Positions 22,229 to 47,234 of a DNA stretch of 64,000 bases are shown here, one piece after another. Below the pieces are notes generated by a model. It saw only the letters and a list, made by a program, of their open reading frames with translations, was not told where the DNA came from and did no database searches. Source of the stretch: Apostichopus japonicus (taxonomy: Eukaryota; Echinodermata; Holothuroidea; Aspidochirotida; Stichopodidae); NCBI RefSeq assembly GCF_037975245.1, contig NC_092576.1, positions 41,065,611-41,129,610 on the forward strand, given 5' to 3'. Made by a program: the position numbers and the translations under genes. How positions within the stretch are numbered: the first letter of the stretch is position 1; the number at the start of each line of letters is the position of its first letter.

Positions 22229-25200
22229 CTGAGACACGTTCACGACTTTTCCAGATGAATCATGTATAACCTTGTTACGAAAATACTGACTTAAAAGTTA
22301 CAGAACCTCCCTCTAACCTATCGTTTGCTCTCCTCTCCACTCGTAAATTAAATAATATTGTAATATATTGTAATATTGTAATCGAAAAAAATTTCACTCT
22401 GAGACAAAGTGTCATGTTGATCTGTATTATTTGATAGATGAGTTGCAAATTACCTGATTTCTTTTAAATTCCTACAACTTGAGGCGTATTTGAAAATGTC
22501 ACTTAGAACTTCTTCACTAAGTTGAAATCCCTTTTGGTGGAACCACAGCTGGCTGACGTCAATCAGTGGTGGTAAACGAACGTCAGTATTCAGAACGATC
22601 TCATTCCGTTCGAGATCAACTGTCTTGAAACATTCATCGAGTGTAAACTTTTTAATTGTAATCTGCGAAAGAGAATGAAAGATAAATATACATGAATCAA
22701 AATTTGATTAATGATCCTAAACAATTTTAACATTTGTTCATCAGCTAAGGTATCCTCTCTGCATTTCATAAACCGGAAAATATGATTCCAAACTTTCTAT
22801 CACAAAACGTCAAAACTGATTATGAGTATAATTACTAAGGTACTATGATATTTTACCTCTCTACTGACAGCTATTTTGAGTAGTTGTATCACTGATCTCT
22901 GTAGTATTCTGGTGTCGTGATGGCGAAGCTGTAGGCCTTCTTCTCCAGAACAAAGGTTCCGCACGTTGTCGATGATAGCATCTATGTTCCCACCTTGCTC
23001 AAGAATACATAAAATGGAAAAGGACTCCATCGCTTTCTGACTGACATCCAGATAATCTAAGATTTGTTTTGCAGCTTTTGGCTTGATACCGCATGCAAAT
23101 CGGTAAACATACTGGAGATGAGAAGGCTCTAAATCTTCCAAAATCTGCCATTTTCCTTCTTCATCGTTTTTCCCTGGTGTAATCTTATCTAAAGCATCAG
23201 CTAGATGATGGGCGGCATACCATTCACAGAATAGACTGTGATAGAAACGAACGTGTGAAACGGTCTTCACATGGTCGGAAGCCTGGACCCACGGCTCATT
23301 CGACATTACGACACTTTTCTCTTCTCGTAATATTCCGATGCTTAAGTAATGTTCAAGGAATTCGTTTCCTAGCTTTTGTATAAGAATGTCTTTGCTAATA
23401 TCGGGGTTATATGAGTGTCCGTTGAGATGATCAAAACAAAGTTTGTCCAACACTTCATGAAAATTCTCACTTAACAGTAACATATCAACGTTCTCATCTT
23501 TTAATTTTAGTTTCAAATGACTATGCAGACACGTGATCATGTAGCGGAAGAAACTGGTCACGGAAGTGCAGTTTCTCAGGGCATCACTCTCTAAACTAAG
23601 ATGTGCATACATCACGAAGAAAAGAGGAACCACGCAGAGATCATTAAGAATTGGATTTGCTTCTAGCCATTCTTTAATTGTATTCTCCATGGATTTGTGG
23701 CCGTTGACGGTCACAGCTTTTTGCATGTACTTATCTTGTGCTTCGGTTTTGAAGCCTGTGAGCCTAATAACGTTCGTCCGGGGTGCGTAGTCCTTAGGAC
23801 GTTGAAGCGACCTTGTTGTTAGAATTACTTTACATTCAGGCAGCATCTTGCCGTTGATGATATCATATACATCTGAGTTTTCTTTAGAGTCTCTTTCAGG
23901 ATATTCATCGAATCCATCCAAAATTATCAAGACAGAGGAAGAGTTAGCTATAAAGTCTTTAATATCATTAACAGTAAATGACGAATTCTTCGGTAAGATG
24001 AACATTTTAATTGCTTCATAAATAGACTTTACTCCTTTCAGTTGTCTCAGGCGTATGAAGAGAAATATGTCGATGTCACTCATGAATGACCCTGGAACTT
24101 TGTTGCACCACTCATAAGCAAGTTGTAATGATAGGGTTGATTTACCATATCCTGGTTCTCCTTCAATAATCCAACGATTACCCATCATCTCAGGATGAGT
24201 AAAAATATTGTTGTAAGAATCTAAAGGTTCCCAAGGATTCTCTTTTTTCTTGTTTTTCGACTTGTATTCAATGCCACCTTCAACATACAGTTCATGCACT
24301 GTAAAATTTCCATGTAAGAAAGGGATTGGTTTGACTGCACTGTAAAGGTTTTCGTAGATAGACTTCAGTTGAGAGAGGAAGAGTGAATCTACATAGACAC
24401 AACATAAACATGAAAAAGTTAACGTAAAACGGTTATTGTAAAATATTTCGAGTGTAAGTTCTGTTTTTTGAATATTTTGTTATATATCAGAAGCACGGCC
24501 AGTGTTCGTCAGAATGTATCAGCTTCCACGTGATCGTTACGTAGAAGAGTACTGGTTACCATGACAATAAGTCTCACACCTAAAAGTGTAATCAGCCACC
24601 CATGATCATATGTCAACACCATTTATACTGTTACAGCATTAGCCCAGATATAATCAATAATTAATTTTACCATTCCTCAATGGCTGACAAATTGGAGGGT
24701 CAGGCTCCATACAAGTACTACTGGAAATTCTATAGATGTTGACTTTTAATGACTTATCCACGTGGTGTTAACGCTAAGATAACTGATTGGTTAACTGCCA
24801 ATTCTACCCTCGATATGTGTTTAAAATTGCTATTGTATCAGCTTTTAATATAGTGATATGAAGTTAAAGGAGAATATCATAAACATTAAAATACGAATTA
24901 AAATGTCGTATTAGAATGTAATAATTCAGACAACGGTACCTTGCCTGGTGACCAATGGGACGCGCTGTAGAAGAGGGAAAAACAAAGAATTAAAATGTAC
25001 ACATCTAGATAAATAGAACATGACCTTCTTATGAGGCATAGTTTCAGTTCACGTGTAGTCATTAAAATGTGCACGTCGAGATAAATAGTGATATGACCTT
25101 CCTTTGAGACATATCTTCAGTTCACGAGTTTTCATTGCATATTTTCTTAATGAAATGGCATAAAACTGTTGGCTTCGGTTAGTTGATTTCAATTATATCT

Positions 25201-28200
25201 CTTTAGATGTCATTACTTGCATTTTAGTTGGAAGTTACAAACCTCTTCATCTTTCTGTGGTAATTTCGATCGTTGTCTTCCCCCAAATACTGCAAAGAGG
25301 TGAAAAGAAGCACATCTTTGAGCTACTTATCGTATAATTTTTTTTCGCAGATAACAGTACATTTATCAGCTATTACTAGTATCTAGGCTACCAAGCAAAA
25401 AATAACTTAATCATGCTGTGTAAGTGTACGACGGGTACATGACGTCATTATTTGGTAAAATACCTGTGTAAAGAATTCCAGCAACGATTACCACAATGAC
25501 AATGATCAAGATGACGACAACGACGATGATGACAGCTATGCTTGTAGAGGGCTGGGTGGTTTCAGCCGTAGTTTGCCCGGTAGGATCCGGCTTAACTGCA
25601 GACAAGATCAGCATGAAATACAATCAGTAAAGCTAAAATTATCTTAAAGCAAAGAGTCTGTCATACTCCCTAAAAAAACAAACAAACAAATCCTTTAAAT
25701 CAGTTGGGACTACTCCTTAGGCCTGCAATAACATTTTACAGTTTATGGGACGTCAAGAGTTACTATGAAAAACTATCATTTAGTGGGTTATGGAACCCCA
25801 CTTCCCGCTGGATATTGGGTCTTATGCATTTGAACAGCGAGCAGGCACTATTGTAAGTAATTTAATAAGTTCCGTGTTAACAATACACTGTACTACAATT
25901 GATCTGGGAAACCGTTACTGATGCCCATACTTAGAATCCATTTTGTTACTCTTTATGTAGAACCTACAATGTTATAAATAACACGTTTTTGATGTAAACA
26001 GAATACATAGATCATCTTTCACGTGAGTTCAACTTACTTAGTCCAGGAAATAACAAATCAATTTTCGAGGACAGGTTAAAATGTTTCGCATTAGATCCTA
26101 TGACTCTGCATTCAACAGTTAGTTTCTTTTCAGCCGTTTCTTTCGTCGTGAAATGTGTAGTAAGAAATACGGTAAAGGTTTCGTCATTGGATGTAGTTTT
26201 CAGTTGCTGATCGTGAAGAGATATCATCTTTGTAGAATCTTCGTGGTACACCCTCCACTCTAATTCTACCTCTGGTCTTATGCCCCTCACACTGCATGTC
26301 AGGCTTCCTGTGTAACCCACATCCAGTACACAGTATTGCTTATGTGTGCATCCCTCGACAACAGGATACCCTGGGATGGGGATCACTAAATAATTGAGAA
26401 TGAGCACAGATACAAGGTTGTTATGAAATTGAAGCTATAGTTTCGTTCATTACAATTAAAATAGATTCCACGAATGATTCAGTTAAAATATTACCCCTAA
26501 TACATGATTATGTTCCCTGTGTACGGAACTCTCACTAATCTTTGAATTTGTAAACAATTTGACACTCTTCAGTAGCAGTTTGTAATATATTTTATCACAT
26601 ATTTTTATTCAGATATTTTCAGAAATGTATACTATTGAATGAAAAGAATGGAACACACCTTTGTCTAATAATATTTATAGTTTTAGTCGTATTATAAAGT
26701 GTGAACTCGTGTTAAGCCTGTTAGTATGCTGCCTAATGAATTACTAATATAGCATGTATGTGATAATATTTCATAAGAATTTCTAAGGAAATCAGCTGTT
26801 CAGACTCGAAGCATCATACATCATTAACAGAACAACGCCTGAACATACCGTACACCACAAGATTAACTGTGGTGGTTCCCTCTGTAGTACCGTCATTGTA
26901 TGTACATCTGTATAAACCTTCATGATGTATGTCCACTTGATCTATGATTAAATTCCCCTCTTCGAGTTTATATTCATCTGATACAACGGATGTTTGACCA
27001 TCACCAACAGCATCGATAAGGACAGTAGTATCAGTAGTAATAGCGTTGTCAGTCTGTGTGATCTTCTCCCAAACGAGTAACTGGTGATGTTCGGCATCAC
27101 ATGGAAGTCGAATCTTCTTATTTCGCTCAACTGCTACCTCTCTTGTTTCCAGCGATGGTGATTCTTTCTCTTGGTTATGAACTAGAACTAAAGATTCAGT
27201 TAGATCCAACAAGTTATATTGATCATCAGCTTTACATACTAGCAGTGCTAGATATGATGAGTGTATAAACGGATCATCCACAGATAGGGAGCTTGTCCAT
27301 GAGTTCGCCAGACTTGAATAAGTCGTTTCGTTGTTTACCGCAATATCACCTCCTATGGTTCTAACTAACCAAGTTAACGCCATGCCAGGTCTAGCTTGTT
27401 GTATTCGACATACTATGGGTCTTTCGTGCTGCCATTGAATGTAGCAGACATCCCCAAAGGCGGCACAGTCGTCAATAACAGGGTGTGTAGGTTCCGGTCG
27501 AACTATAGGTTAGAGATGATTACACACATTTTAACTTCCCTAAAGACTTTAAATTATACTTATATAAACAATCTCGGTTATTATAATTGTATAATGTAAG
27601 TAAGAAATATATACAGGTATTATTCAATTGTTCTATGTTTAGATAAACTTATCATGTCTGGTAAAAGAATGACAATAAATAAAATTATCAATCTTGGTCC
27701 TGAATTATTTTTAACATATAGCGTCATAATATCAAACTTATTTAAGTCAGCTCTATTATATATTATTTTACCTTAGAACTTGTCATCCAAGAAAACAATA
27801 TATACAGTGTGAAGTTTAATCTCAACTAAGGACTCAAAGACAGAGTGATGACCAATTATTAACATGTCCACACAAATGCCATTATTAAAAATGTTGTTGG
27901 GATAACCCCATAATAAATAGAATGTGTACTTACTAAAAGTAATAATATTTATTTCATATTCCCGAGGAAGGTCTTGTAGCGTTTCAAATTCAACCACCGA
28001 GAATTTAGCTTCGTGTTCCACCGATACGTTATTGATTACTAAAGATCCATCTGGATCGATGTTGAACTCCCCTGAAGTATATCCGGTACCGTCTACCCCA
28101 TTGCTGCTGTAACTAATCGTTGGAAGTCCATCTTTTACATCTAAGTTAAAATACCAGTGGATGCTAGAGAAATCCTCACTGAAAGAACACACGATCTTCC

Positions 28201-28725
28201 CAGACTTCCCAATTTCGAGAACTTGTGGAGTTTTGCAAACATCTTCGTCAGCTTTATCATAAAATGCAAAGATCATAGTGTGAATTATTTTTCGAATTTA
28301 AAGTAAGTTTCTGCTCGGAACTTCCTTCACCGTATAGTCGTTTGCACATTTTGTGAATATTTATATTATTATGATATATGTTACTGAAAAAAGTGCTGTC
28401 GATGTAGCATATGAGACAGTGTCAACTTCTACCTTCGTATTGCCAAAAAGCAATTTACATTTTGGGGTATGTTTCACATGCTGCAGGTACTGTTACGATT
28501 TACAACAACAGAGTTTATGAAAAGGCAAGACACTAGAGAAGTTCTGATAAATGTATTTCCCATGTATTCGCCTATGTAGGTTATACAGTAGAAACAAAAT
28601 GAAAATAAGAAATAAACGCGAATGCTGTGGGTAGAAATAACGTGGGATTAATAGTTACTCAACTCACCCAATGCAAAACTTGCAAAAATTATGAAAGCTA
28701 CTGTAAGAATCGGTTGCTTTGCCAT
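22207..28725 (-). CDS. Gene A: Ig-transmembrane-NACHT receptor (whole gene model)
   Basis: Nine well-supported coding exons, plus a tentative tenth, encode about 1107-1114 residues. In order: signal peptide (1-19), Ig-like 1 (20-125), Ig-like 2 and 3 in one exon (126-343), Ig-like 4 (344-459), stalk and membrane helix (460-503), a ~24-residue juxtamembrane linker, a NACHT ATPase exon (528-1038) and a C-terminal exon starting an LRR-like segment. Exons join in consistent phase: phase 1 through the ectodomain, phase 0 between the juxtamembrane exons and after NACHT. NACHT proteins are STAND ATPases that oligomerise on sensing a ligand, and they are normally cytosolic. Here extracellular Ig domains replace the usual death-fold N-terminus. 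I infer a cell-surface immune receptor signalling through NACHT oligomerisation. Gene B has the same architecture, which argues strongly against a chance chain of exons. The start ATG has G at -3 and +4, and a splice acceptor 17 bases upstream indicates a 5' UTR intron. The 3' end is uncertain. Confidence 0.85.
22454..22662 (-). CDS. Gene A exon 9: C-terminal exon leading into an LRR-like segment
   Basis: 209 bp, phase 0 in and phase 2 out; acceptor TTTCGCAG, donor GTAATT. It begins ITIKKF and ends with YASSCRNLKEI, the typical start of an NLR leucine-rich repeat. Gene B's counterpart is also 209 bp and ends CRNIKES. Confidence 0.8.
22857..24388 (-). CDS. Gene A exon 8: NACHT ATPase domain
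   Basis: 1532 bp, phase 1 in and phase 0 out at AGAG/GTAAAA. Walker A GEPGYGKST lies at 24135-24161 and Walker B with the acidic pair (LIILDGFDEYP) at 23898-23933. A sensor-1-like ILTTRS follows, then helical regions with the NLR-like FRYMITCLHSH and FYHSLFCEWYAAHHLA. All catalytic elements are intact, so ATP binding and hydrolysis are likely. The nearest relative in view is the gene B exon; the gene C exon is more distant. No CARD, PYD, Death or DED precedes the NACHT. Confidence 0.95.
24940..24964 (-). CDS. Gene A exon 7: 25 bp microexon
   Basis: 25 bp, phase 0 in and phase 1 out, preceded by TTCTACAG and followed by GTACCG. Encodes RVPLVTRQ. It is required to bring exon 6 (phase 0 end) into frame with the NACHT exon (phase 1 start). 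Gene B has an equivalent of the same length with a VP-V core. Confidence 0.7.
25243..25289 (-). CDS. Gene A exon 6: juxtamembrane exon
   Basis: 47 bp, phase 1 in and phase 0 out, with a GTTTGT donor. It encodes FGGRQRSKLPQKDEE, basic next to the membrane as expected for a cytosolic flank. Gene B has a 50 bp equivalent also ending in EE. Confidence 0.7.
25464..25595 (-). CDS. Gene A exon 5: stalk and transmembrane helix
   Basis: 132 bp, phase 1 to 1. A Thr/Ser/Pro-rich stalk (PTGQTTAETTQPSTS) precedes a hydrophobic helix of about 23 residues, mostly Val and Ile (AVIIVVVVILIIVIVVIVAG). This places the Ig domains outside the cell and everything downstream in the cytosol. Confidence 0.88.
26038..26385 (-). 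CDS. Gene A exon 4: Ig-like domain 4
   Basis: 348 bp, phase 1 to 1, donor GTAAGT. The canonical cysteines are in SLTCSVRG and LTVECRV, the tryptophan in ELEWRVY, and there is an additional cysteine pair near the start (EGCTHKQYC). It is the membrane-proximal domain and is well conserved with gene B. Confidence 0.85.
26849..27502 (-). CDS. Gene A exon 3: Ig-like domains 2 and 3
   Basis: 654 bp, phase 1 to 1. Domain 2 has several cysteines (DDC, DVCYIQW, IVCRIQ) and closes with YLALLVCKA. Domain 3 runs from KIRLPCD through LLVWEK to HHEGLYRCTY and TVNLVVY, a complete Ig pattern. Two Ig domains in one exon is the same in gene B. Confidence 0.85.
27934..28251 (-). CDS. Gene A exon 2: Ig-like domain 1
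   Basis: 318 bp, phase 1 to 1, donor GTAAGT. The Ig B-strand cysteine (GKIVCSF) and core tryptophan (SSIHWYF) are present. The expected F-strand cysteine is missing: the segment reads HEAKFSVVEFE. An extra cysteine sits near the exon start (VCKTPQ). Gene B shows the same pattern, so the altered disulfide is a family trait rather than damage. Confidence 0.85.
28668..28725 (-). CDS. Gene A exon 1: signal peptide
   Basis: Starts MAKQPILTVAFIIFASFALG: a basic residue, a hydrophobic core, then small residues. The exon is 58 bp and ends in phase 1 at GTGAGT. Gene B's first exon is also 58 bp, with a signal peptide and GTGAGT donor. Confidence 0.85.
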
Positions 28726-28930
28726 CACTTTATCGTAACGGTCTGCACGAGGAAAAAAAAATCAAAATTATCTTTACTGTATTGTATTGTGCTGTTGTGC
28801 TGTGTTATACATTTAGTTAAACTATACTACTGCAGAACGCTTTTGCAAGGTACAAGCTGATATATTATATTTACATATAACCAGCAAAGTCAACTTTCGT
28901 TTCACAAAACACGCGATGAATGCTTGAAAG

Positions 28931-30262
28931 AGATCAAAGTGCGACAATTTATACAATATGTACGTTATATATGCTGTGTCTGAAACTATATGACCGATAT
29001 ACCGAAATGCGCAGTGGCTCTCTGTAACGTTAATTTCACACAGGTGACAGGGGTAGTATTAACACTATTCAGTAAGAAATTTTACGCTACTGCATTTTAG
29101 TTATTTGCTGGGCTGTAGTCGATTCCACTAGAATCAAGTCCGTGTCCGAGTCTTTCAGGGCACCCAGTTGTTAGTCCAGGCTATGAATTATGCAATGTAA
29201 TCTCATCTACCCGAGTTCCCTGCCTCTGCCCCCCCCCGTATCCCATGTAGTTACATATGTCCATAATATATCTATATATGCTCCTGTGATGTAATATATT
29301 TGAGCAGTTCAACTGGGGTAAGGTGTACACTCCGGTTAGCTGTACCATCAAAACACATGGAAAAGCTGCTTGGAAATACTTGTAATAGATCAAAGTGAGA
29401 CAATGTATAAACACGTACGTTGTTTATGCTATTTTTGAAACTATATGACTGATATACCGAAATGCGCAGTGGCTCTCTGTAACGTTAATTTCACACAGGT
29501 GACAGGGCGTAGTATTAACACTATTCAGTAAGAAATTTTACGCTACTGCATTTTAGTTATTTGCTGGGCTGTAGTCGATTCCACTAGAATCAAGTCCGTG
29601 TCCGTATCCGAGTCTTTCAGGGCACCCAGTTGTTAGTCCAGGCTTTGAATTATGCAATGTAATCTCATCTACCCGAGTTCCCTGCCTCTGCCCCCCGTAT
29701 CCCATGTAGTTACATATGTCCATAATATATCTATATATGCTCCTGTGATGTAATATATTTGAGGAGTTCAACTGGGGTAAGGTGTACACTCCGGTTAGCT
29801 GTACCATCAAAACACATGGAAAAGCTGCTTGGAAATAATAGATCAAAGTGAGACAATGTATAAAACACGTACGTTGTTTATGCTATGTTTGAAACTATAT
29901 GACTGATATACCGAATTGAGCAGTGGCTCTCTGTATCGTTAATTTTACACAGGTGTCTGGGGTAGTTTTAACACTATTCAGTATGAAAAATTACGCTTCT
30001 GCATTTTAGTTATTTGCTGGGCTGTAGTATATTCCACTAGAATCAAGTCCGTGTCCTTGTCCGATTCTTTCCAGGGCACCCAGTTGTTAGTCCAGGCTTT
30101 GAATTATGCAATGTAATCTCATCTACCTGAGTTCCCTGCCTCTGCCTCCCCGTATCCCATGTGGTTACATATGTCCATGTTTTATCTATATATGCTCCTA
30201 TTCTGTAATATATATATCGAGCAGTTCAACTGGAGTAAGGTGTACACTCCCCTTAGCTGTAA
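28931..30262. repeat. Tandem repeat, ~455 bp unit, 2.9 copies, upstream of gene A
   Basis: Units start at AGATCAAAGTG (28931, 29387, 29840). They share CAGTGGCTCTCTGTAACG, TTATTTGCTGGGCTGTAGT and GGGTAAGGTGTACACTCC. Units 1 and 2 are nearly identical and unit 3 is more diverged. The array begins about 200 bases upstream of gene A's signal-peptide exon, in the region shared with the divergent gene D. Open frames inside it are periodic artefacts. Confidence 0.9.
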
Positions 30263-31758
30263 CAGTAATACACAGGGAGACTCTGCATTTCAGGAACACC
30301 GATGATACATCGATTACACCAACCCACCCTGATTCAAACATAATGGTTGCCCCTCCCCTACGTGTTGTTAAAAATGATTGCTCCAGAACTGCAACACTGG
30401 TTGAGATTCGCTTGAGTCATTTAGTATTACCAACACGACCTGGGGAGTGTGGTAATGGGTAGGGTCGATGGGGTATACAGAAAGCGAAAATGGGGCCTAA
30501 ATATATATGACTTTAGACAGAATCGATATTTTAACGTCTTCGAAGAAACAAAAATCTAGTGCAGTTTTAATGCCTGTTGCTCTTTATACTCTTTGTATCA
30601 GCATCTTCTTTCTACACCAAATATGTACGAACTTTGGGTGGATAGGCTACTTGGAAGAACCTATATGTTAACAAGACAGTAACGTGTGTTGTACACCCAC
30701 TATTATGTATCGTAATTCATAATTCTCTCTCTCTCTCTGGTTTCAGCGTACTGTCATTCTCTGACGCAAATATAACCTTGTTCCATAATTGTTTTCCATA
30801 ATGTTTTTGGCATTAACTTTTGATGAAAAGAATTAACGTCATTTGACGGTGAATGTTTATCAACCATGAGTCAACACCGGCCAAAATCACAGACGCCATG
30901 TTGTCTAGATTCATTTCGGTCACAATAGCATTATGCTTTATTCCTAGTCTTCATTAACTATACCTATTCAATATCTGTTTGATAGGGTACCTTAAAGCGA
31001 GTACTTACTATTAAATATGATCTCTTCTTCTCTTCTTCTGAGAAAATTACTTCGGATATTGGAGACTGGTTCACGACCTGTGCCTGTGGTATATTAACAA
31101 GTACCTCGTAATACTATAACTATATAAAAATCACTGCATTGTTCAGTTAAGGCAACCTAGCGCTCGATCACTGCAAATGCAACATGCATAATCATGAATG
31201 CCACGCGAAGGTCATGTTTACCAAAACCGTTAGTTCAAAATAATAAATAAAAAAATATAATGAAACACGGCACAGCCTGTAGGCTAAAGTCCATTTACTA
31301 ATCTACGATTTTAGTTCTGCAACAAGTGTAGTAAGTGATTGATAAATCCTACAATGGTAATGGTTGCGTTCGTGGCGACGCTAACGGGAAGGGGCACAAC
31401 CAATTATACTTCTGGAGATGGAAAGTGGAAGTGGGAAGTGGGGAAAGATTTCGTCAAGAAAAGCCCCCCCCCCATATGCAGATAGAATATTAAAAAAGAT
31501 AATAATGAACAGTACATAAAGGTATACATGTAAATATGGGAAAACCTATACAGTCAAACAATTATACAACTTGGTGTGAATAGCTGAAACAACTTTGCTT
31601 CTTAACATGCTTCATTTTATGTAAATGTCCTTATAGATCCCTCCCATAGATGACTTTATATATTAGCCTCAATCCCACCCCCAACAACCAACCAACCAAC
31701 CAACCACAATACAAAAGGTATGATCGCGCACTTGTTAAATGTGCATCAGTATCTCTAG
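30263..31758. other. Intergenic between genes A and D
   Basis: No supported exon. Contains a (CT)n tract near 30725 and a (CCAA)n tract near 31685. Confidence 0.5.
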
Positions 31759-31888: not shown

Positions 31889-31999
31889 GTTGGACTGAAT
31901 TCCATAATAAGAGGATACTTGAGATAACTACACAGAAAGTCACTCATCTTAAAATCTCCCTGAAATGTTGTTTTAAACGCATAATTAACAAGGAGAGGT

Positions 32000-33901: not shown

Positions 33902-34020
33902 TGTTTCTTTCAAGCGAAATCAACCCTTCTGCTTCGTGAACTTTTAAAAGATGAGCTGTATATTTCATGGTTATCGTGTCTTGTATTTTTAGAAAAAGTA
34001 AACTTTTTTTTGCTATTATA

Positions 34021-34342
34021 ATGTCTGCTGCAAAGGTTCTAATTTTCCTATTGTCAACGTTTGTCTTACATCATACATGGGCAAATTCCCGAATAGTGAA
34101 GACCTTTTCCGATTCTGTTTTACTTGAAACTTGTTGCGAGACAACGCAAACGATTAACTGGAAATTTAAAGAAAATTTTCTCTTTTTCAAATGGATTCCA
34201 CTGGAGAATGTTATCAAAGACACTGTTTCGCTTGATGTTAATAGTTCACTATGTATAAGTAACGTATCTCTCTTACATGAAGGCGTCTATCAGTGTATGT
34301 GCAACGATATTTCTGTGAAAAATTACTCATTGGAAGTGGAAG
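34021..34342 (+). CDS. Gene D exon 1: signal peptide plus single V-type Ig domain
   Basis: The ATG at 34021 (A at -3) opens a signal peptide (MSAAKVLIFLLSTFVLHHTW) and one Ig domain. The B-strand carries a double cysteine (LLETCCE), then INWKF, and the F-strand LLHEGVYQCMCND carries CxC. Two parallel disulfides are therefore likely. The exon ends in phase 1 at GTTTGT. An upstream in-frame ATG at 33967 exists, but this start aligns with gene E. The HEGxYxC strand also matches Ig domain 3 of genes A and B. It is transcribed away from gene A. Inferred role: secreted or membrane Ig protein, perhaps a partner or decoy of the receptor. Confidence 0.75.
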
Positions 34343-37007
34343 GTTTGTTAGTGATTAGTATTTTGTTTCAAATATTTTTGAGTAACCTCCAATATGGTTT
34401 CTGTTTGCTCTACCGAGTTAACAGACAGTACTTGTACTGTGAATGTTATCGTAAGCAAGTAGTATGATTTTGAGCTTTCAATACATTTATTTAAGTCAAA
34501 ACCAGTAACATTGTAAACATTCAAAAAGTAAAAATATAGATTAGACTTAATAGCAACCCAAAAGAGGCAGGTGAGTTTATAAGAATGAGCCATATCTTAC
34601 ACATGCACAAGAGATAAAATATCAATAAGGGGAAAACAAAAACAATTATTAATTGAATAAACATAATGTAAATATAAAGGCGAATAAGGAACATTCATAG
34701 TATTGATATCGAAATATCATTACATTAAAACATAGTAAAATGTTTGCATTATAGCGAAGAACTCGATCGTAGAAGTAGGGAAAAATTACAATTGCTGGTA
34801 ATTACTTTTGATCTTTATTTTCCACCATAGCAATATTTGCAAGCGACAACAGACGTAATAAAAATATCACATTTTTAACAATTAGGGGTTAGTCATATAT
34901 GTTTGTGAATAATTTGTTAACTTTTGGTTGTGAATTGGTTGGTTTGAACATATCTTAACCTGACTTGAGGATTGGTAGACGTAGTCTTATAATGCTCACC
35001 ATTTCATATGAAACAGATTGAACCAGAAAAAAATGCATCAATATTTCTTATAAGAAAGCAAGAAATAAACAAACATATTGGAGATAGAAGAGTGTGTTTT
35101 TATTGGAAACTTATCTTTTCAAGAACTCATGTCATTATTGTATGTATATATTGAAAGTGTTAGTAAATAGTAAAATGTATATACTAGATTTTAAACAGCA
35201 CCGCACGTTGCGACTTATCACATTTGCTGTACAAGTTGATGGTAAGATGCAGAGACTTGTCAGTAGGAACGTATTTCAATACACATTATAAACATCAATT
35301 TTGGCTGAATAGACACAATGATGGAGATAATAAAATTGGAGAAATTTTACATTCTTATAACTAATTTCTCCATTTCTGACTTATGTGTGCAGATATCAAG
35401 TAGGGAATGTGATGATAGTCTGGACTTGTAATAGGTCACGCTACAACTTCAGTCTGTGCAAGGTAAATAAATGATTGCAACATATCAGTCAATATAATGT
35501 TATCTTCAATGACCTTTTTAAGTATTCATTCAACGGACAATACGTATATATTTAATTACTCAATATCTTTCATGTTTCATTAATAATGTCCACTGCACAG
35601 ACGTTAAAGGCATACAAGTAATGTAGTGTGTTTCACATTCATTCATAATGAAGTTAATATTTCTATGTTCCCCTAAACAAAATTATCCGTTTTTTTATTG
35701 AATTGTTTAAACTTACGTTTTGATTTTATTTTTGGAGTATGATTTTATTTTTTATTTTGCCTGTTGAGTGCAAATAATGTCAAAGGTTGGCAAAGGGAGG
35801 TGGGCGTGGGCAAATTCAATCCCCTCCTCTGATTAAGGTAGGAACATGAACCTTAATATAAGATCCAGGTGCAAATGAATGCGTTTATTAATATTCTATT
35901 GTGGAAGGTATTCTCACCGTTAAAAGTTAGTAAATCTAATGAAGCATTTGAAGGCATCATTAGGCCATGAATTAGGCCTATAAATAGCACTAAACACAAC
36001 ATATGTTAAACACTAAACCATTTTCATTTCTGGAATTCATTTTTACAGCCAAAATGTAGCAAATTGGACTCGAGTCATTTCATGATTTAAGTCAACATAC
36101 GACGTTAACGAAGAAATTTTTGTAGAGTTACTATTTGGTAAAGTATGATACAGTGGAATTCAGGAGGCTGAAGGAAATCGACTACATCAGTGATGGGTGA
36201 AAGGTGAAACTCGCAAGAGTTCATATGGTATATAAATAATCATACATGTGCTTAAAAGAACTATTCCTTTGTAGTGCGGTTTATAAACCATGGGAAATGG
36301 GGACGGGAATGTGCAACCCAAAACACTGGATCAGCGCCGGGTATCATAACATATCATATATTAGCTGTCCATAAAAAAAACACCCACGCAGAACACCCAA
36401 TTATGTTAATTTCTGTAATTTATACTACAAAAGGCAACTGCTAATTCATTTTGCGCCTGGCTCAAGACTACTCTTATTGCCAATCGGCTCCTCGCGAATT
36501 TTGCCACTCTCATGTGGATTTCTTATTCTGATTCTCATTGCACAGTTGGTTTGCCTAGTAGGAGTAGAATGATATCGCTATATATTTACCTATTGTGAAT
36601 CACACGACCTAAACAAATTACACACCTGTGCGAAAAGCTAACAACAAGTGAATAAATGTTATTATGTGAATGTATGATCACAACTACCTGAAACCAAATC
36701 CAACCTCAAGGAATTATATAAGTAGCTTTTCGAGAAACTTTAGAACACATGACAATATGACTTCATTTATTTGAAATAATTAAATAATATTTCTATCTTG
36801 CTTGGATATTGTGAAACATTGTGGAAAATATATCTTTTAATTTTTTTTATAAAATAATTAAGATATATATCGCTTTAAACTACTTTATCTTTATTCCAAG
36901 TCTGTATGTAGAGTTCAAATAGCGTGATGTAAATCGCCTTAATCTAGTTTATCTTTATCACTGGGTGTTTGTTTATTGATGAACAATCAAGCCACTCCAC
37001 ATATCAG
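34343..37007. other. Intron(s) of gene D, no clear exon
   Basis: AT-rich. One splice-bounded candidate at 35391-35459 reads GNVMIVWTCNRSRYNF, but its phase fits neither neighbour. No membrane-spanning exon was found. Confidence 0.35.
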
Positions 37008-38453: not shown

Positions 38454-38987
38454 CATTTTTTTGTATTCCTGTTCGGTCATGCGGGACGAACCGATGTTTT
38501 TCTGTGAAAAGCAAATATGCACACAATTTATATTACGATAATTCGAATAAGTAGCACGTCTGATTCTTATTGGAAGTATAACACGGATATTTGTGAATCA
38601 ATTTAATCTTATAATCTTATTGTAATAAGAGCACTTTTACCTCATCGTATGTATGTAAATGTGTCATTCCCAATTCATAGAAACCACAAGAAGATTTGAG
38701 TGAGGTTAGTTTTGACTCCAAGGCTATCCAAAGTCCTTTAAGCCACTGAAATATCACTCTAAAGACAACAGCCAGAAGGTGGTTGAAATATGGTACATAA
38801 AGTATCATATCAGGTTTCAACTATTTACACTGATAGATAAAAATTAATAAATACAGCTTGTATCTATTCAGACTCTTACCACCCAATAGCCGGAGTTTAA
38901 ATCTAGATCAAATCGTATTGACGACGGAAACCAACATACTGTAAGGAAAGCGAAAACAAAGACAAGCATGTTACAAGATTTAATCAT
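38454..38987 (-). CDS. Gene F, 5' end: signal-peptide protein of unknown family
   Basis: Three phase-0 exons join: 38987-38880 (36 codons), 38745-38641 (35 codons) and 38501-38454 (16 codons). Donors are GTAAGAG, GTAAAAG and GTAAGTG, with good acceptors before the second and third. The protein starts with a signal peptide (MIKSCNMLVFVFAFLTVCW) and continues YWVWLKGLWIALESKLTSL, with few cysteines. I do not recognise the family. It lies between gene D's possible tail and the 3' end of gene B, on B's strand, and its 3' part was not found. Confidence 0.5.
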
Positions 38988-40381
38988 CACATGTGCGTTT
39001 CCGAAATCATGTATCATTCTAAGCGTTAGGAAAAGCGCGTTGGAAATCTGCTTAAAGCAAGGTCTTCAGTTGGTTTTGATAAATGTCCTGTTTGTACTAA
39101 ACTTAAATATCAAAAGAGCTCTGTAGATTACCAAGCAAAGCTTCAATCAAAATAGTCGAGTAAAGATAAAAGGAGAATTTGTTTTAACTTACTGTGTTTG
39201 CTATGCCACAACAAAAGGACGACAAAATGTTGAGGACTGAAGTTCTAAAATTAATTACTCAAAATTCCTTGATGTGGACACATCATGGCAAGTGACTAAC
39301 TGTAATTAAATCTAATATCTACAAAATGATCAATGCTCGTAAAGTTGTCAAAGTTGATAACCGACCTCAAGAAGTTACTTTAACAAGAAAATCGGTTGGA
39401 TGATCTGTTAATATGTTTCAAAGTAAATAGAGAATTCTATATTTAAGATATAGTAATAAATTTAATGGTATGAAATAGTTCAAATATCATTGAGTTAATC
39501 CATTATCAAGATCTCCAGAGAAACTTCTGTTATAAAGCAGTTCAAATGAGAAAGGAAATGTTTTTCAAGAAAGTGATAAGCCACTTGTCGTCAGTCGCGA
39601 GTACTCGTTTGCTCGTTACAATATATAAAAACCCCTAAATGATACAAAAGGATACAAAAATATGCCTTCTTATCAAATTGCGGTCCCCTAATTGGATAGT
39701 TGCAATTTGTTTGCACCTATTATTACTATGTTTCAAAATGGTAAAAATCATGCCTTTGACATTTTTGGCGCTCAGCTGTCTTAGAACAGGTTTTGCATCG
39801 ACCTTGTAAGGTAATAAGCTGTAAAGGAATCTGAAATTAAGAAAACGGGATAACTTGGTTTTAGAAGTGTCACGATTTGAATTAATATCATCATGTCATT
39901 TACATAGGTGCAGGTGTCACAATTTTCCTTACAAAAATTCAAGGATATAAACTTTTCATTTAGAAAATTTTGTTTACAGACGACGTTAGTTGATATCATC
40001 CTATTGGTTACAAACCTATACCATAAACTCCTCAGTAATGTGTTATCTAAGTGAAATTTAAAGAATCCGATAGCATCTAGTCAATGGACAGATGACAGAC
40101 GAAGTTCGTGGGAAATCTTTATCCTTCATGAATTGTTGACGCTTAAACTCAGTCTTAAACATATATAACTATAAACATGATTATTGCATTCTCTGAGTAA
40201 ACAAATGTGTTATTTTCATGAATTGCTTACGCTAAAACTCAGTCTTAAACATATATAACTATAAACATGATTATTGCATTCTCTGAGTAAACAAATGTGT
40301 TATTTTCATGATATCAAATAATGTTGTAAAGCAAAATTAAATATTAAACATGTTAGCGTTACTGATATACTGTTTTCATAC
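38988..40381. other. Region between gene F and the last found exon of gene B
   Basis: LRR or terminal exons of gene B would be expected here on the minus strand. I see none that fits the phase-2 end of B's last exon. Confidence 0.4.
40126..40310. repeat. Tandem duplication, 90 bp unit, two copies
   Basis: TCATGAATTG-TACGCT through ATTATTGCATTCTCTGAGTAA and TGTGTTATTT occurs twice with only a few differences (unit starts 40126 and 40216). It was therefore a recent event. It lies in the 3' flank or last intron of gene B. Confidence 0.9.
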
Positions 40382-40590
40382 CTGCTTTCTTTAATATTCC
40401 TGCAATGAGAGATATATTTAAAGATGTCTTCCAGAATCTCGTGACTAAACTCCATTTCTTTGTGCTCGAAGGATAATTGGCTGACGTCACATAGTTCTGG
40501 CACGAATACTTCAGAGTTCAAAACGATCGCATTGTTTTCGGTGTCAACTCGTTTGAAAGATTCGATGAGAATAACTTTCGGAATTGTAAT
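40382..40590 (-). CDS. Gene B exon 9: C-terminal exon
   Basis: 209 bp, phase 0 in and phase 2 out, acceptor GTTATACAG, donor GTATGA. Begins ITIPKVILIESFKRVDTENN and ends YISHCRNIKES. It is homologous to gene A's exon 9. The continuing exon was not found. Confidence 0.8.
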
Positions 40591-43500
40591 CTGTATAACA
40601 AGAAAAACAAAATCCTTTAAGATTGATTTTTATACACCTTACAAAATGAAAACACCGCGAAACTTTCTTGATAAATACGTACTAAAACACTTACGTTACT
40701 ATTGTGCTTTACACAGATAGATACCGAATGATGGCTAAGTGAAGTATCTTAATATACCAAACAAATTATTTAAATGAGTGTTGTCTATGGCAAAATCATT
40801 GACAGTCTAATAATTTTGCATCATATTAAAGAATAAACGTCTTAAAAGAGTAATAATTAATCATATAAACTACAAAACTGTGGTTTTACCTGTCTACTTG
40901 CAGCTAGTTCCAGTATCGTGATGACCGATCTCTGAATTATTTTGTTGTCCTGATCTCTTATTTGCAGAGTTCCTGAGCAAACTTCTCGTAGGTTTTCTAC
41001 AATTTTGTCAACATTTCCAACCTGTTCGAGAATGCATAGAATCGGAAGGGCTTCGATACCCTCCTGGCTTATCTTCAGATGGTCTAGAATATGTTTCGCT
41101 GCAGTTGGTTTAATACCGCATGCAAATCTAACAACGTACTGAAGCTGAATTGGATCCAAATCTTCCAGTATCTCTAACCCATCTTCTTCAAGTTCGTCGT
41201 CTAATGTAACTTTATCCAAGACACTAGCAAGGTGATGGGCTGCATACCACTCACAAAACAGGCTGTGATAAAAACTAATCTTTGAAACGATCTTTACGTG
41301 CTCTGAAGCTTCAATGCCTGGTTGATTGGACATCACAAGGGTTTCTTCTTCTCGTAATATCCCAATAGTTAAGTATTGGTCAAGGAAATCTTTTCCTAGC
41401 TTTTGAACTAAGTCTTCTTTGTCCATGTCAGGATTAAACGAATGACCGTTGAGCTTTGAAAAGCATAACTCGTCAAGCTGTTGATGATTGTTTTCATTTA
41501 TCTCAAATTTCTCAACGTTCTCATCTTTGAACTTTGATTTCATGTGACTGTGAAGGCACGTGATCATATAACGAAAAAAGCTTGTCATTGAAGTACAGTT
41601 CTTAAAGGCGTCACTCTGTAAACTAAGATGAGCGTACATGACAAAAAATAGTGGAACCACGCAGAGCTCTTTAAGAACAGGATTTTCTTCTAGCCATTCC
41701 TTGATTGGATTTTCGAAGGACTTGTAGCCGTTGATCGTCACAACCTTTTGCAAATATTCTACCTGCGCTTCGGATTTGAATCCTGTGAGCCTAAGATGAT
41801 TAGTCTGCGCTGCGTATTCCTTGGGAAGCCGTGACGATCTTGTTGTTAACAAAACTTTACAATCAGGGAACATTTTTCGTTGAAGAATATTGAATATGTC
41901 CGAGTTCTCCACCTCCTTTTCTGGGTATTCGTCAAAACCATCCAATATGATCATCAAAGAAGGACATTTATCGATGAAACTCTTAATTTCCTCGATAGTG
42001 AATTGAGAATTTGTGGGCAAAATAAACCTCTTGATTGCTTCATAGATTGATGAAACGCCTTTCAATTGTCTTAGTCTGATTAAAAGAAATATGTCTATGG
42101 AGCACAGAGATGATCCTGGAACTTCATGGCACCATTCATAAGCAAGTTGTAGAGCTAGAGTTGACTTACCGTACCCTGGTTCAGCCTCAATTATCCAGCG
42201 ATTACCTCTCAGCTGTGGATGCGTGAACAAATTTTTATAGGAATCAAAGCGTTCCCATTTTTGCTTCATTGCTTGGCCCTTTAATAAGTATTCAATGCCA
42301 CCTTCAACATACAATTCGTGCACGGTGCAGCGATCTTGCATGAACGGTATTGGTTTGATTCCGCTGTAGAGATTTTCGTAGTTTAATTTTAGCTGTGTGA
42401 TGAAGGTTTCCAGTGCATCAGATTCTGAGGAAAAATAACAACCAAATAAATACAATAAAGGACTTATGTCATGGTGATTACCGGAGAATTTGCATAAATT
42501 AGTTTCAACAACTTTATTGAATATGTAATTTAAGATACCGTGTTAGAAAAGGTAGCTCTTATTATTACGGTTCGTTATATAAAAAGTTAATTGAAACTTT
42601 TGGTAGCATAATTTGGCGTTATACGAGTGATGATCACAACTTTACCTGCATTCTGTACCATTGGCACGTTCTGTGGAAAGATAAAAAATGGAAATCATAA
42701 AATGAAATATGGAATGTGAAATATTCTGCAGAGTTTGCAGTACCATCTTCTTGAGTCTAGCAATAAAATTCGTTAACTATTTGATGATGCAGTTAAAGTT
42801 CTTGCTAAGCTCTCCTCAACGTGTAATATATGATCATAAGTTACATATCTTTTGGATCTGTTTCACAATTAAAGTTGAATAATCTTCCATACTCAGCATA
42901 ATAAATATGTATACCTTAGGAACATTTCTTCAATGTTGTGGTAAAGCTAAACTTGCTTAATACGCTTGAACAACTTCTTTTTAATCTGCAATGATTGATG
43001 CTTAAAACATAACCGATGCGAAGATTTGATGAACTTAAGTTACCTCTTCAATGTTTGCTGTGGATACCTGTGGATCTCTCGTCTTTCGATAACCTTCCAG
43101 GAGCAACGAAGAAAAAAAACTTGATACATTTCTATTTATAAATAAAATATACATTCCAAGAAGGTTCGTTCATATACAAAAAGATAGTACATTTCTGTGC
43201 ACCTGTTCGTTAGTAGAGATAAGAAAGAAGGTACTGTAAGGTAATAAATAACATAAAATATACATAAGTTAAACAGTTTATTAAAAGAAGGATTGCTGTT
43301 TAATTGCAGAATGCATTCCCTAGTCATTATTATAAGTTCTTTGCTCCACAAATTGGTTACAATACGTATTCATTATTTCTTTGCTGGGGTGTAAGTCAAA
43401 CTTATATAAGTTAAGTAATGAGACCTTATTTTCTTTTCGATAGCACGAGTGAAAAGGAAGGAAGCAAAAAGAAAACAACAAGACATGAAAGTGTAGAAAA

Positions 43501-46500
43501 TCTTGTATAGAAATCAAGAAAGCAGCGTGAGAAAATATTAACAAATTCTGAAAGAACAATTTGTAATTAGTGAATCATTTGTCTGTTGTGAGAACAAAAA
43601 AAAAACAATACCTAAGTAGATGCAACAAGCTCCCATTAGTATACCAACCGCGACGACGAGGATAATGATGAAAACAAAAGTATATTGATTGTTGATTGTA
43701 GGTGGAAGACTACCGTCTGTGTTGACGATTTTGTTAGTTGTCTGTGGTTCTACTGTGTAGAGAATATATGTAGACAGTATATACAGTACATACCATATGA
43801 TGGGAAATGCTTACCCTAATGATATAAATTAGTCAAAATCGAAAATATAATATTGAACATTGAATTTCGTACAACTGTATCTTTATTATTAAAATGAAAT
43901 TGATATGAACTTGTGTAATTTGGAGTCTGGGAATGAACACTTAAATCAATGGGTATTCATGGTAGGAAGGCAGCAGGCATGAAGATAAAATAGATGTAAT
44001 AAACCATAACATAAATTGTAGACATTTTAATATTGAGCATAATTTATGATCTGATTCATGTTAATGGATGTTGAACTAACCTATTCCTTGAAATAATAAT
44101 TCAGCTTTGGAGGTAAGTTGAAAAAGTTTTGCATTTGTTCCTACAGCTCTGCATTCGACAGTTAGTCTGTCATTTGACGTGTCTTTGACAGTGAACTCTG
44201 TCGTAAGGATTATGTCAAATGTGCCGTCAATGGATTTTGTTTTCAGCTGCTTTTGTCCATGGAATGTAATCATCTGTGCAGAGTCGTCGTGGTACACTCT
44301 CCACTCTAAGTCTACCTCTGGCCGTATGCCCTTCACGGCGCACCTTAATATTTCGTTATAGTTTACATCTAGTACACAATAGCGATCCTGAGTACACCCA
44401 TCAATGATGGGATAGTTTGGGATTGGATTTTCTGCAGGAAAGGAAACAAATATGATTGAATTGCTACTCGAGTATTGATATATAACTACGATTGACTGAT
44501 GAAACTCTGATTTGAAATTCTAAATAAAAGAGGGGGGGGGGGGCGGAGGGGCGTGGGGATACAGACAGCGATCGTCGTACATAAAAATAATAGCATCGTA
44601 GCGAGGTTATTAAAACCATTGTCATCCGCAACTAGGTATAGCACTTACCATATACAACGAGATTGAATAACATGACACCTCCCATAGTACCGTGAGTGTA
44701 TGTGCACATGTATATTCCCTCGTGTCTCAGTTGTACATCACGTAATATTAAATTCCCTTCTCGTAACTCATAATCTCTTGATATTACGTATGTTGCATTG
44801 GCTGTATCCACATCGACAACAACAGGTGTGCTAATATTGTCCTCTGTAGAGATCATTTCCCAGACGAGAAGCAAATGATGACCATCAATGCATGGAAGCT
44901 CTATCTTCTCGTTTCGCGCAACTGATACTTCTGTTGTATCAACCTGGGATGTTTCCTTCCCTTTGTTATGAACCAAAGTCAATGCCTCGCTATGCACCAG
45001 CAAATTAAGCGGATCGGCGGCTTTACAAACGAGTAGAGACAGGTATGATGATTGTATGAAAGGTTCAGTAACAGTCAGGAAACTTGTCCACGTGCTCGTC
45101 TTGTGTTTGAAAATGGTTATGTTGTTTAATTGTATGTAACCTTCTACAGTGTTGGCCAGCCATGTTAATGACATGGCAGGTCTAGCTTCCTGCATTCGAC
45201 ACGTTATTGATCGTCCCTGTTTCCATTGGATATAACATACGCTACTTTGTATGTCACAATCGTCAACAACAGGGAAAGGTGGGTTCGGCCGAACTAGAAA
45301 TTTGGAGATGAAAGAAAAGATAAAGACGGATTTTCAGTAAAACTGGTAGGTGATGCATACTTTATAGTGGACCATTTTATTGGAGGTTTAACTGCAAGCC
45401 TTAGTTTTCATACCACGTTTCCAGGAAATTGGATCCCAGTATCATTTGTCTCGACGGCCTTTTTCTTTCGGAACACATTTTGGGCTATAACACTTACTTA
45501 CCACATCTTCTAGATAGTCCTCCTCTCACATTAGATCAGGTATTATTTAGGCCTACTTATTGTAATAACATGCGAATTAACTAATAAACAATACCAACAA
45601 TTTTGGAGGTGTCAAATAATCTATAGAATATAGTTTTATGTCTTCAATGAACAGTCAGGTTCATGATATTCGAGGTAGACAATGATTGCTAAACACTTTG
45701 AAGGTTTGAATATAATGGATGTTATGCTCACTGTAGGACTTATATCAATATAAATATCTTGCTAGGCTGTTCTGATCAGTTTTGCATTCATACATAGTGA
45801 ATCTGGTTTCATGTCCGACAGACACGTTCTTGATTATGTACTTTTGTGTAGAGCTTATGATGTCAATAATTATAATAAAATTCATCAATCCATTACTATG
45901 GCTTCATATTACGTTGAATCATGAGGACTCATAATTTTCGAATTATATTCAAAGTTAAAATAAAGTAAATAAGTTGTCTCATATATAAAAAGAAGTAAAA
46001 GATACAATGGTTTGAATCCAGTAAATATATAGTATTTACTTACTATAGGTAATTAGATCGATATCATGCCTTGCTAGGCTTTCCTGATCCGTTTCATATT
46101 CATACACCGTGAATTTGATTTCGTGTTCCACCGATACGTTGTTGATTATTAATGATCCATCTGATCGGATGTCGAATTCCCCTGAGTCATAACCTGCCCC
46201 TTCAGCATTTTGGTTAGTGATGAGGCTTACTGTTGCTGGACCGTCTGTTATGGTAAGCTTATAATACCAATGAATGCTAGAGAAGTTATCACTGAAGCTA
46301 CAAACAATCGTCCCTGTTTTTCCAATCTCAAGATACTGAGGAGATTTACATCCATTTTGGGCAGCTGTTAGGTAAGGAAATACAATATCATAGTTCATAA
46401 TACGTCTTAGGATTTGCAAATGTTGAAAAAAAAAAACTCTTGTTTAAGAGACTGAAGACTTTAACTCCAAACAAATCGTTAAGTCCTTATCGATTCTCAA

Positions 46501-47234
46501 TCAGATTCCGTGGTGATAATAATATTCATGGATCAATTGAAAACCTGATAGACAAGATGGCAATCCATGGAGTTGTAGATCTCATGCCTTCTATAATGGA
46601 ATGGATCTACATTGATCTTTGCCCTTGACCTTTGAAAACTACATAAATACTATTTTCAAATTTAACTTATGATTTTCTAGATATCTTGTAGTTAAATTAC
46701 TTTTTCCAACGAACTGACAAGCAGAAAATGGCAGAAAACAGTTTTGGGGTATTTGAACTTTTGATTTACATAATACCTCTAAGGATTATTAAAAAAGGCG
46801 TTAAAGACTAAAGACTTTAACTACCATTGTTAAGTCGATAAGTCTTTGTCGATTTTCAATTATATTTCTAGGTGCTAATAATATTCATAGATCGATTGAA
46901 AACAAAATGGAAAAATTTGTATTTTCTTTTATTTCAGCTATTGAACTTAATTGTAACATATATAGTGCACATATCCAAACCATATCAAATCTTATAGAAT
47001 ATATTATTACTGTTGATACTACGGATTCTTGGTATGGTCAGTTCGACGCATTAACTTTATACTACTTACTATGGCTTTGACGACAAACTAATTTAATAAC
47101 AGGTCAGCACATAGGAAGTTGACATAGGAAGTTGAAGTATGACTATGTGAAAACATTACTTTGGATAGTTACTCACCTAAGGAAATATTAGCAAGAACCA
47201 TGAGAAATATAGCCTGTGCTGCCTTATTTGCCAT
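40382..47234 (-). CDS. Gene B: Ig-transmembrane-NACHT receptor (whole gene model)
   Basis: A paralog of gene A with the same nine exons in the same phases and nearly equal sizes: 58, 321, 645, 351, 141, 50, 25, 1535 and 209 bp. It encodes 1111 residues plus an unresolved end. Domain order: signal peptide, Ig-like 1, Ig-like 2-3, Ig-like 4, stalk and membrane helix, short juxtamembrane linker, NACHT, start of an LRR-like segment. By eye the NACHT exons are the most alike and the stalk, membrane helix and linker the least alike. I infer the same role as gene A: a membrane-anchored sensor with a cytosolic STAND ATPase. The start codon has A at -3 and G at +4, with a 5' UTR splice acceptor 19 bases upstream, as in A. 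No frameshift or internal stop was found. Confidence 0.85.
40890..42424 (-). CDS. Gene B exon 8: NACHT ATPase domain
   Basis: 1535 bp, phase 1 in and phase 0 out. Walker A AEPGYGKST at 42159-42185, Walker B LMIILDGFDEYP at 41922-41957, sensor-like LLTTRS, then FRYMITCLHSH and FYHSLFCEWYAAHHLA. The frame is open throughout. The leading SDALETFITQLKLNYENLYS segment corresponds to the same pre-NACHT helix in genes A and C. Confidence 0.95.
42646..42670 (-). CDS. Gene B exon 7: 25 bp microexon
   Basis: 25 bp, phase 0 in and phase 1 out, between TTTCCACAG and GTAAAG. Encodes NVPMVQNA. Same length and phase as gene A's microexon. Confidence 0.7.
43044..43093 (-). CDS. Gene B exon 6: juxtamembrane exon
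   Basis: 50 bp, phase 1 in and phase 0 out. Encodes YRKTRDPQVSTANIEE, with a basic start and EE end as in gene A. The acceptor (CTCCTGGAAG) is weak but phase-consistent. Confidence 0.65.
43612..43752 (-). CDS. Gene B exon 5: stalk and transmembrane helix
   Basis: 141 bp, phase 1 to 1. A polar stalk (EPQTTNKIVNTDGSLPPTIN) precedes the helix YTFVFIIILVVAVGILMGA and then CCIYL. The two cysteines at the cytosolic edge are possible palmitoylation sites. The helix differs from gene A's Val/Ile-rich one, so only hydrophobicity is conserved. Confidence 0.87.
44081..44431 (-). CDS. Gene B exon 4: Ig-like domain 4
   Basis: 351 bp, phase 1 to 1, donor GTTAGT. Includes DGCTQDRYCV, ILRCAVKGIRPEVDLEWRVY and LTVECRAVG, matching gene A's exon 4 closely. 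Confidence 0.85.
44649..45293 (-). CDS. Gene B exon 3: Ig-like domains 2 and 3
   Basis: 645 bp, phase 1 to 1, donor GTAAGT. It starts RPNPPFPVVDDC with VCYIQWKQ and closes domain 2 with YLSLLVCKA. Domain 3 contains KIELPCI, LLVWEM and RHEGIYMCTY, then LFNLVVY. Confidence 0.85.
46044..46364 (-). CDS. Gene B exon 2: Ig-like domain 1
   Basis: 321 bp, phase 1 to 1. B-strand GTIVCSF and SSIHWYY are present. The F-strand cysteine is absent (HEIKFTVYEYE), as in gene A, and the extra N-terminal cysteine is present (GCKSPQ). Confidence 0.85.
47177..47234 (-). CDS. Gene B exon 1: signal peptide
   Basis: 58 bp, phase 1 out at GTGAGT. Reads MANKAAQAIFLMVLANISLG, a short but acceptable signal peptide. 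Same size and donor as gene A's exon 1. Confidence 0.85.

Follow-up and report, generated by a model that had tools for sequence, protein, structure and literature searches.

The 64-kb window analysed here, a stretch of the Apostichopus japonicus genome (C16:41065611-41129610), contains three long open reading frames (ORFs) with NACHT domains: A (22800-24479, minus strand), B (40857-42542, minus strand) and C (61876-63543, plus strand). A and B are each part of a longer gene model in which a signal peptide, four immunoglobulin (Ig)-like domains, a predicted transmembrane (TM) helix and a NACHT exon follow one another. NLR-type NACHT switches are cytosolic as a rule, and a family of this layout allows the study of how such a switch is controlled when sensing is placed across a membrane and the leucine-rich repeats (LRRs) are cut to a stub.

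Gene models of A and B

A (28725..22454) and B (47234..40382) were each modelled on the minus strand with nine exons of identical phase pattern, bounded by GT donors and AG acceptors, and the products of 1107 (A) and 1111 (B) amino acids contain no stops. The exons pair in length (A/B, in nucleotides: 58/58, 318/321, 654/645, 348/351, 132/141, 47/50, 25/25, 1532/1535 and 209/209), and the introns that separate these nine exons total 2949 nucleotides in A and 3518 in B. An earlier, sequence-only reading of this DNA had proposed just such an in-phase chain with matched exons and had named stops or frameshifts at the junctions as evidence to the contrary; the nine paired exons bear the chain out, and neither kind of defect occurs in A or B. 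Its exons are confirmed, but position 22454, where it placed the limit of A, only closes an exon and is followed by a GT donor. We therefore rejected both 22454 and 40382 as gene ends, since each is an exon end with more exons downstream. Four further exons complete A (stop at 19569; 13 exons, 1179 amino acids), and three lengthen B to at least 38454 (1173 amino acids), with no stop or frameshift over the 1179 and 1173 codons. Scanning upstream of Ig1 for an ATG followed by a hydrophobic core and a donor yielded a single candidate in A; in B it yielded the start at 47234 that had been named before, with an in-frame ATG also further up. The exons are as follows, those marked as added being absent from the sequence-only reading.

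28668..28725, minus strand: A exon 1, start codon and signal peptide
27934..28251, minus strand: A exon 2, Ig1
26849..27502, minus strand: A exon 3, Ig2 and Ig3
26038..26385, minus strand: A exon 4, Ig4
25464..25595, minus strand: A exon 5, predicted membrane helix
25243..25289, minus strand: A exon 6, cytosolic linker
24940..24964, minus strand: A exon 7, cytosolic linker
22857..24388, minus strand: A exon 8, NACHT-HD1-WHD-HD2
22454..22662, minus strand: A exon 9, start of the LRR-like stub
21652..21737, minus strand: A exon 10, LRR-like stub (added)
20732..20790, minus strand: A exon 11 (added)
19955..20002, minus strand: A exon 12 (added)
19569..19592, minus strand: A exon 13 and stop codon (added)
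47177..47234, minus strand: B exon 1, start codon and signal peptide
46044..46364, minus strand: B exon 2, Ig1
44649..45293, minus strand: B exon 3, Ig2 and Ig3
44081..44431, minus strand: B exon 4, Ig4 (by homology to A, with no Pfam match)
43612..43752, minus strand: B exon 5, predicted membrane helix
43044..43093, minus strand: B exon 6, cytosolic linker
42646..42670, minus strand: B exon 7, cytosolic linker
40890..42424, minus strand: B exon 8, NACHT-HD1-WHD-HD2
40382..40590, minus strand: B exon 9, start of the LRR-like stub
39754..39830, minus strand: B exon 10, followed by a GC donor (added)
38880..38938, minus strand: B exon 11 (added)
38454..38501, minus strand: B exon 12 (added)

Nonsynonymous (dN) and synonymous (dS) divergence between A and B is 0.29 and 1.80 over the whole chain and 0.22 and 2.41 over the NACHT exon, values to be read qualitatively as dS is near saturation. 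Judged from sequence, the nine paired exons of equal phase, a dN below dS and a full-length match to the relative P0001 make the shared layout of A and B more than chance. That the two are recent non-functional or decoy copies is improbable in our judgement. The family has decayed elsewhere, leaving 15 relics of the Ig4 exon on contig C7; in B, exon 10 is followed by a single GC donor (after 39754), and a short last exon was looked for beyond 38454 and not located; and both genes are known here from genomic sequence. Set against these points, both chains are open throughout, their NACHT motifs are intact and dN is well below dS.

The intron after Ig1 of B holds a partial duplicate of the Ig1 exon (45754-45837, minus strand; 68% identity to 46066-46149), and locally repeated segments of several hundred bases occur at 5094-6764 and 28932-30293, the second just upstream of A.

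Domain content and fold

Pfam recognises the NACHT domain in all three genes (E 2.4e-15 in A, 3e-15 in B and 2.9e-7 in C), and with its motifs intact in A and B the earlier description of an intact NACHT in both holds. A and B possess the NACHT, winged-helix and HD2 core of a canonical NLR, and the core fold is closest to that of NLRC4, an inflammasome protein. Pfam support for the Ig domains is thin: among the six Ig exons scanned, only Ig4 of A passed the cut-off (C1-set, 23.1 versus 21 bits), and Ig4 of B had no match at E 0.1. The Ig assignment consequently rests on homology between A and B and on the predicted fold of a relative, the full-length protein P0003, whose AlphaFold model places a helix (479-514) between four consecutive beta-rich blocks (29-454) and the NACHT core; the structure comparison barely covered the Ig part. 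Membrane helices were called by hydropathy.

At the N-terminus, where a canonical NLR carries an effector domain (CARD, PYD, DED, Death or BIR), A and B have the signal peptide and Ig domains, and neither Pfam nor the exon models detected a death-fold domain in either. At the C-terminus, only a short strand-helix stub was found in place of an LRR array, and P0003 matched no LRR family at E 0.01. A full LRR array 3' of A and B was considered and rejected: the relatives finish in the stub, and an all-against-all ORF comparison of the two 3' regions, covering exons of 18 amino acids or more, gave no further exon pair among the matches listed. Because the array is reduced to this stub, A and B are NLR-like and are not classed as canonical NLRs. 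In contrast to vertebrate NLRC4, NOD2 and NLRP3, they have no CARD or PYD that we could find and no full LRR array, and they feature a secreted N-terminal half and a predicted membrane helix. The suggestion that Ig domains replace the LRRs thus needs qualifying: an Ig ectodomain is indeed present where the array is absent, but a short LRR-like stub remains.

Membrane topology

Among 125 sequences examined for topology, 57 have a helix preceded by more than 300 residues. In these 57, the part ahead of the helix has 1.51 sequons per 100 residues and the part behind it 0.46, and flanking lysine and arginine residues average 1.0 before and 5.1 after, being higher after the helix in 55 of the 57. 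This asymmetry of sequons and basic residues supports a topology with Ig outside and NACHT inside, so that A and B are predicted to be type I membrane proteins with a cytosolic NACHT domain.

The reverse orientation has been claimed for AjNLR-new, a published A. japonicus protein, with NACHT outside and Ig inside and with cell-binding data (PMC13133943). Applied to the family, it would have an extracellular NACHT domain read the ligand and an intracellular Ig part act as a cytoskeletal adaptor. That study relies on a prediction by TMHMM, on recombinant NACHT that bound to coelomocytes when added, and on a TM and NACHT fragment located at the 293T membrane (PMC13133943). We consider this topology highly improbable for A and B, given the signal peptide, the threefold denser sequons on the Ig side, the NACHT-side excess of basic residues (55 of 57 sequences) and the NLR core fold; the sequence signals of the family, which are indirect evidence, do not point to a reversed protein. 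As described in section 4 of that paper, the tests in our reading do not establish the native side of the full-length protein (PMC13133943). The family signals therefore call the published topology of AjNLR-new into question. One member, P0005, gives a weaker signal than the family mean, with seven sequons on each side of the helix (479 versus 699 amino acids).

Relatives and family scale

Two protein searches were made, with about 8000 candidates scored in each. The search with the A model returned 113 matches, of which 104 were strong (E up to 6e-104); by an eye tally, 88 of these come from A. japonicus or Holothuria leucospilota and 16 from 'lgn' contigs, which we infer to be assembled reads including complementary DNA. 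The profile search added more holothurian proteins and a crinoid NACHT protein, P0122. Over 100% of its length, A is 92% identical to P0001, 61% to P0002 and 59% to P0003, and one divergent stretch of P0001 looks like a gene-model error; the NACHT exon of B is 92% identical to P0007. All Ig-TM-NACHT proteins found here with a named organism are from sea cucumbers. None was found outside this group among the roughly 8000 candidates scored in each search, a scope too small to show absence. The searches also gave P0122 and 'ena' NACHT proteins, mostly with LRRs and none with Ig. The search of other echinoderms that the sequence-only reading had proposed thus yields the architecture in sea cucumbers, but in the crinoid a NACHT protein without Ig.

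P0001 and P0002-P0005 are annotated as full-length chains. Two further relatives nearly fill their contigs, P0047 with 1208 amino acids in 3698 nucleotides (about 70 left) and P0020 with 1199 amino acids in 3724 nucleotides (about 125 left). Since these contigs leave no room for introns, one transcript spanning Ig, helix and NACHT is likely in the relatives. A longer relative, P0114 (1624 amino acids in a contig of 5164 nucleotides), has Ig domains, helix, NACHT and stub followed by two C-terminal Death stretches (Death E 4.5e-23), which suggests that at least one lineage couples a surface receptor directly to death-fold signalling.

To gauge the family in the genome (671.6 Mb, 35 contigs), where the Ig4 of P0002, an A. 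japonicus protein, is found at 100% identity, we scored the best 150 of 459 A-type NACHT exons, the best 106 of 488 Pfam NACHT exons and the best 150 of 287 Ig4-like exons. Pairs of Ig4 and NACHT closer than 10 kb on the same strand were counted over all 150, 150 and 106 rows, with 211 distinct NACHT places. At least 53 of the 135 open Ig4 exons are followed on the same strand by a NACHT exon less than 10 kb away, no two of them by the same one, at a median spacing of 2.5 kb; these loci are defined solely by the order of Ig4 and NACHT. They comprise 43 loci on C16, 7 on C12 and one each on C10, C7 and C21. A NACHT exon upstream was found in 0 of 150 cases and one on the other strand in 0 of 150. 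The 82 of 135 open Ig4 exons with no NACHT exon within 10 kb, many of them weak matches in clusters of their own, could be Ig-only relatives or could lie beside NACHT exons that were not scored.

A Death-tailed member in this genome was rejected as a candidate. There are 124 Death-like matches, most on C12 by eye, and the 16 on the relevant stretches were compared with the Ig4 exons; none of the 16 is near an Ig4 locus, the nearest being 39.8 kb from an Ig4 relic on C7 and the rest at least 390 kb from any Ig4 exon.

Separately, Ig4-like clusters with no nearby NACHT, including several weak matches only, lie on C16 (0.3-0.9 Mb and 7.8-9.4 Mb), C11 (3.7-4.0 Mb) and C15 (11.2-11.7 Mb). These are possibly Ig-only relatives or an ectodomain donor family.

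The Ig-TM and NACHT exons might instead be separate genes, or always be spliced apart, so that an Ig protein at the surface and a NACHT protein in the cytosol would be made separately. P0007, the closest database protein to B, is annotated as NACHT-only (656 amino acids), P0041 as an Ig protein (627 amino acids) with a NACHT fragment only, NACHT-only paralogues are numerous, and the 82 lone Ig4 exons point the same way. This account has little probability in our estimation: every junction is in phase in both paralogues, linker exons included, the full-length annotations and the intron-free chains of P0047 and P0020 argue for single proteins, AjNLRC4 is reported as one protein (PMC8699970), and the split annotations may themselves be gene-model errors.

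Published members of the family

The sequence-only reading knew of no characterised family with this domain order, and that claim does not stand, as two A. japonicus proteins have it: AjNLRC4 (MN607598; PLoS Pathog 2021) and AjNLR-new (PIK48001.1, 1197 amino acids; J Biol Chem 2026), the latter with Ig, TM and NACHT in one protein (PMC13133943). AjNLRC4 is described as a membrane receptor whose Ig part faces outwards and whose NACHT domain faces the cytosol. It is reported to bind microbes by way of Ig, to dimerise and be internalised upon Vibrio infection, to contact actin and to promote Arp2/3-dependent uptake (PMC8699970); caspase-1 is reported to be recruited through the Ig part, with MLKL cleavage (PMC11932488). 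Its layout (Ig-like 31-132, Ig 251-353, TM 483-503, NACHT 600-757, with no CARD and no LRR given; PMC8699970) resembles that of A, whose helix is at 479 and Walker A at 603-604. Two AjNLRC4 expression primers translate to GTPQYLEL and AFPVVSGC, resembling the starts of Ig1 and Ig4 in A and B. That A or B is AjNLRC4 itself was nonetheless rejected: of seven published oligonucleotides, five match nowhere in the window at 7 mismatches or fewer, the best site of another has 6 and that of the 19-base small interfering RNA target has 4, so that none (0/7) matches with fewer than 4. The homology test used other A. japonicus chains (P0001, P0002 and P0003) in place of AjNLRC4's own sequence. As the family is published and the oligonucleotides mismatch the window, A and B are, by sequence, uncharacterised paralogues in a characterised receptor family.

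A second membrane helix has been placed at 776-795 of AjNLRC4 (PMC8699970). The interval coincides with hydrophobic residues that are conserved (A 774, P0003 779) and that form, in the AlphaFold model of P0003, short helices inside the NLR fold. We think that the reported second helix would not be a membrane helix, which brings that published feature into question. P0005 agrees with AjNLR-new in length and mass (1197 amino acids, 136.5 kDa), with an isoelectric point of 5.15 computed versus 5.34 published, and is a candidate for the same protein. A genome survey of Chiridota heheva, as far as available, lists NLRs with an Ig V-set domain not found in sea urchin NLRs (PMC8913654); these share NACHT and Ig with A and B in another sea cucumber, and are given as domain content only.

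The kind of receptor has already been described; new here are the completed gene models, the size of the family, the evidence from relics, the relative with a Death tail and the case made for the topology. In the open-licence literature no report was found of how large the family is, of the relics on C7 or of a member with a Death tail, subscription papers and supplements lying outside that search.

Proposed mechanism

We propose, at a probability of roughly 0.7, that A and B are adjacent, intact-looking Ig-TM-NACHT paralogues with a surface Ig reader and an NLRC4-like cytosolic switch, whose likeliest output is uptake. By analogy with AjNLRC4, the four-Ig ectodomain would read a microbial surface ligand, and one predicted helix would cross the membrane to a complete NLRC4-like NACHT-HD1-WHD-HD2 switch with its short LRR-like stub. 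Because only this stub is present, LRR sensing and LRR autoinhibition have probably been lost; activation would then be imposed by clustering of the ectodomains, bringing the NACHT modules together. The authors of AjNLRC4 attribute its dimerisation to the Ig part (PMC8699970), unlike the sequence-only reading, which had NACHT cluster the tails. That reading's surface sensor agrees with the predicted Ig ectodomain, helix and cytosolic NACHT, but ligand reading by Ig is reported for AjNLRC4 only (PMC8699970). The likeliest output, as reported for AjNLRC4, would be actin-linked uptake of the bound microbe, and a second could be recruitment of caspase-1 after internalisation.

With the same anatomy, the output could instead be that of a surface-triggered cell-death or inflammasome-like platform rather than of a phagocytic receptor, which we hold to be unlikely, yet the most serious of the alternatives. 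It would fit the reported association of AjNLRC4 with caspase-1 and MLKL cleavage (PMC11932488), the two C-terminal Death domains on the same chain in P0114 and a core fold closest to that of an inflammasome protein. A and B themselves have no death-fold domain, uptake and actin contact are reported for AjNLRC4 (PMC8699970), and none of the 16 Death exons compared lies near an Ig4 locus of this genome.

Several points weigh against A and B as surface receptors with an uptake output. Their function is drawn from relatives, and their chains are predicted from genomic sequence. To these are added the GC donor and unlocated last exon of B, the NACHT-only annotation of P0007, the claim made for AjNLR-new together with the even sequons of P0005, the lone Ig4 exons, and the definition of the 53 loci by exon order.

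NACHT-only forms and gene C

All 15 Ig4 exons with stops lie on C7, and every one of them is followed by a NACHT exon at a distance of 4.2 to 7.2 kb. Three of these loci, read directly (L009-L011), contain only the Ig4 relic and the NACHT exon, and the available NACHT stretch is open; the same search at the intact P0002 locus recovers signal-peptide, Ig, helix and NACHT exons. From the stop-bearing relics ahead of NACHT exons it follows that some NACHT-only genes descend from surface receptors. Two stops stand at identical places in all three relics read, so decay preceded duplication: one loss followed by amplification explains the three loci, and repeated loss goes beyond this evidence.

In a NACHT tree of 122 rows, C belongs to a 27-row helix-less clade nested among Ig-TM forms. 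The tree is rough (FastTree only, with long outgroup branches and 14 label changes), and some of its 'no helix' labels are truncated gene models; as a result, the C7 relics carry the argument for loss.

At odds that we judge somewhat better than even, sea cucumbers built a large surface repertoire of NLR-like proteins by joining an NLRC4-like NACHT to a helix and an Ig ectodomain, some of this repertoire returned to the cytosol by shedding Ig exons, and at least one lineage acquired a tandem Death tail. If so, A and B (surface) and C (cytosolic) would be two end states in one window, and in the P0114-type lineage the surface receptor would carry a death-signalling tail of its own. A genome that contains both intact surface forms and NACHT-only forms with relics offers natural pairs for studying how the switch is controlled.

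Gene C occupies 60028-63495 on the plus strand, and its NACHT exon is as follows.

61979..63495, plus strand: gene C NACHT exon, a paralogue with no modelled signal peptide or helix; boundaries set by eye

C was considered as a third surface receptor and rejected, as its model has neither a signal-peptide nor a helix exon and the tree places it closest to NACHT-only sequences. If its second ATG is used, the protein starts with MGNRRSK. Such a start resembles an N-myristoylation motif and may offer a different route to the membrane. Upstream of the NACHT exon, two pairs of plus-strand segments, 58255-58392 with 60839-60976 (67% identical) and 60148-60243 with 61262-61357 (66% identical), apparently reflect a local duplication of the 5' part of the gene.

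Elsewhere in the window, two units consisting of a signal-peptide-like segment and an Ig segment, assigned to no NACHT exon and 48% identical to each other, lie on the plus strand at 34033-34344 and 50516-50830.

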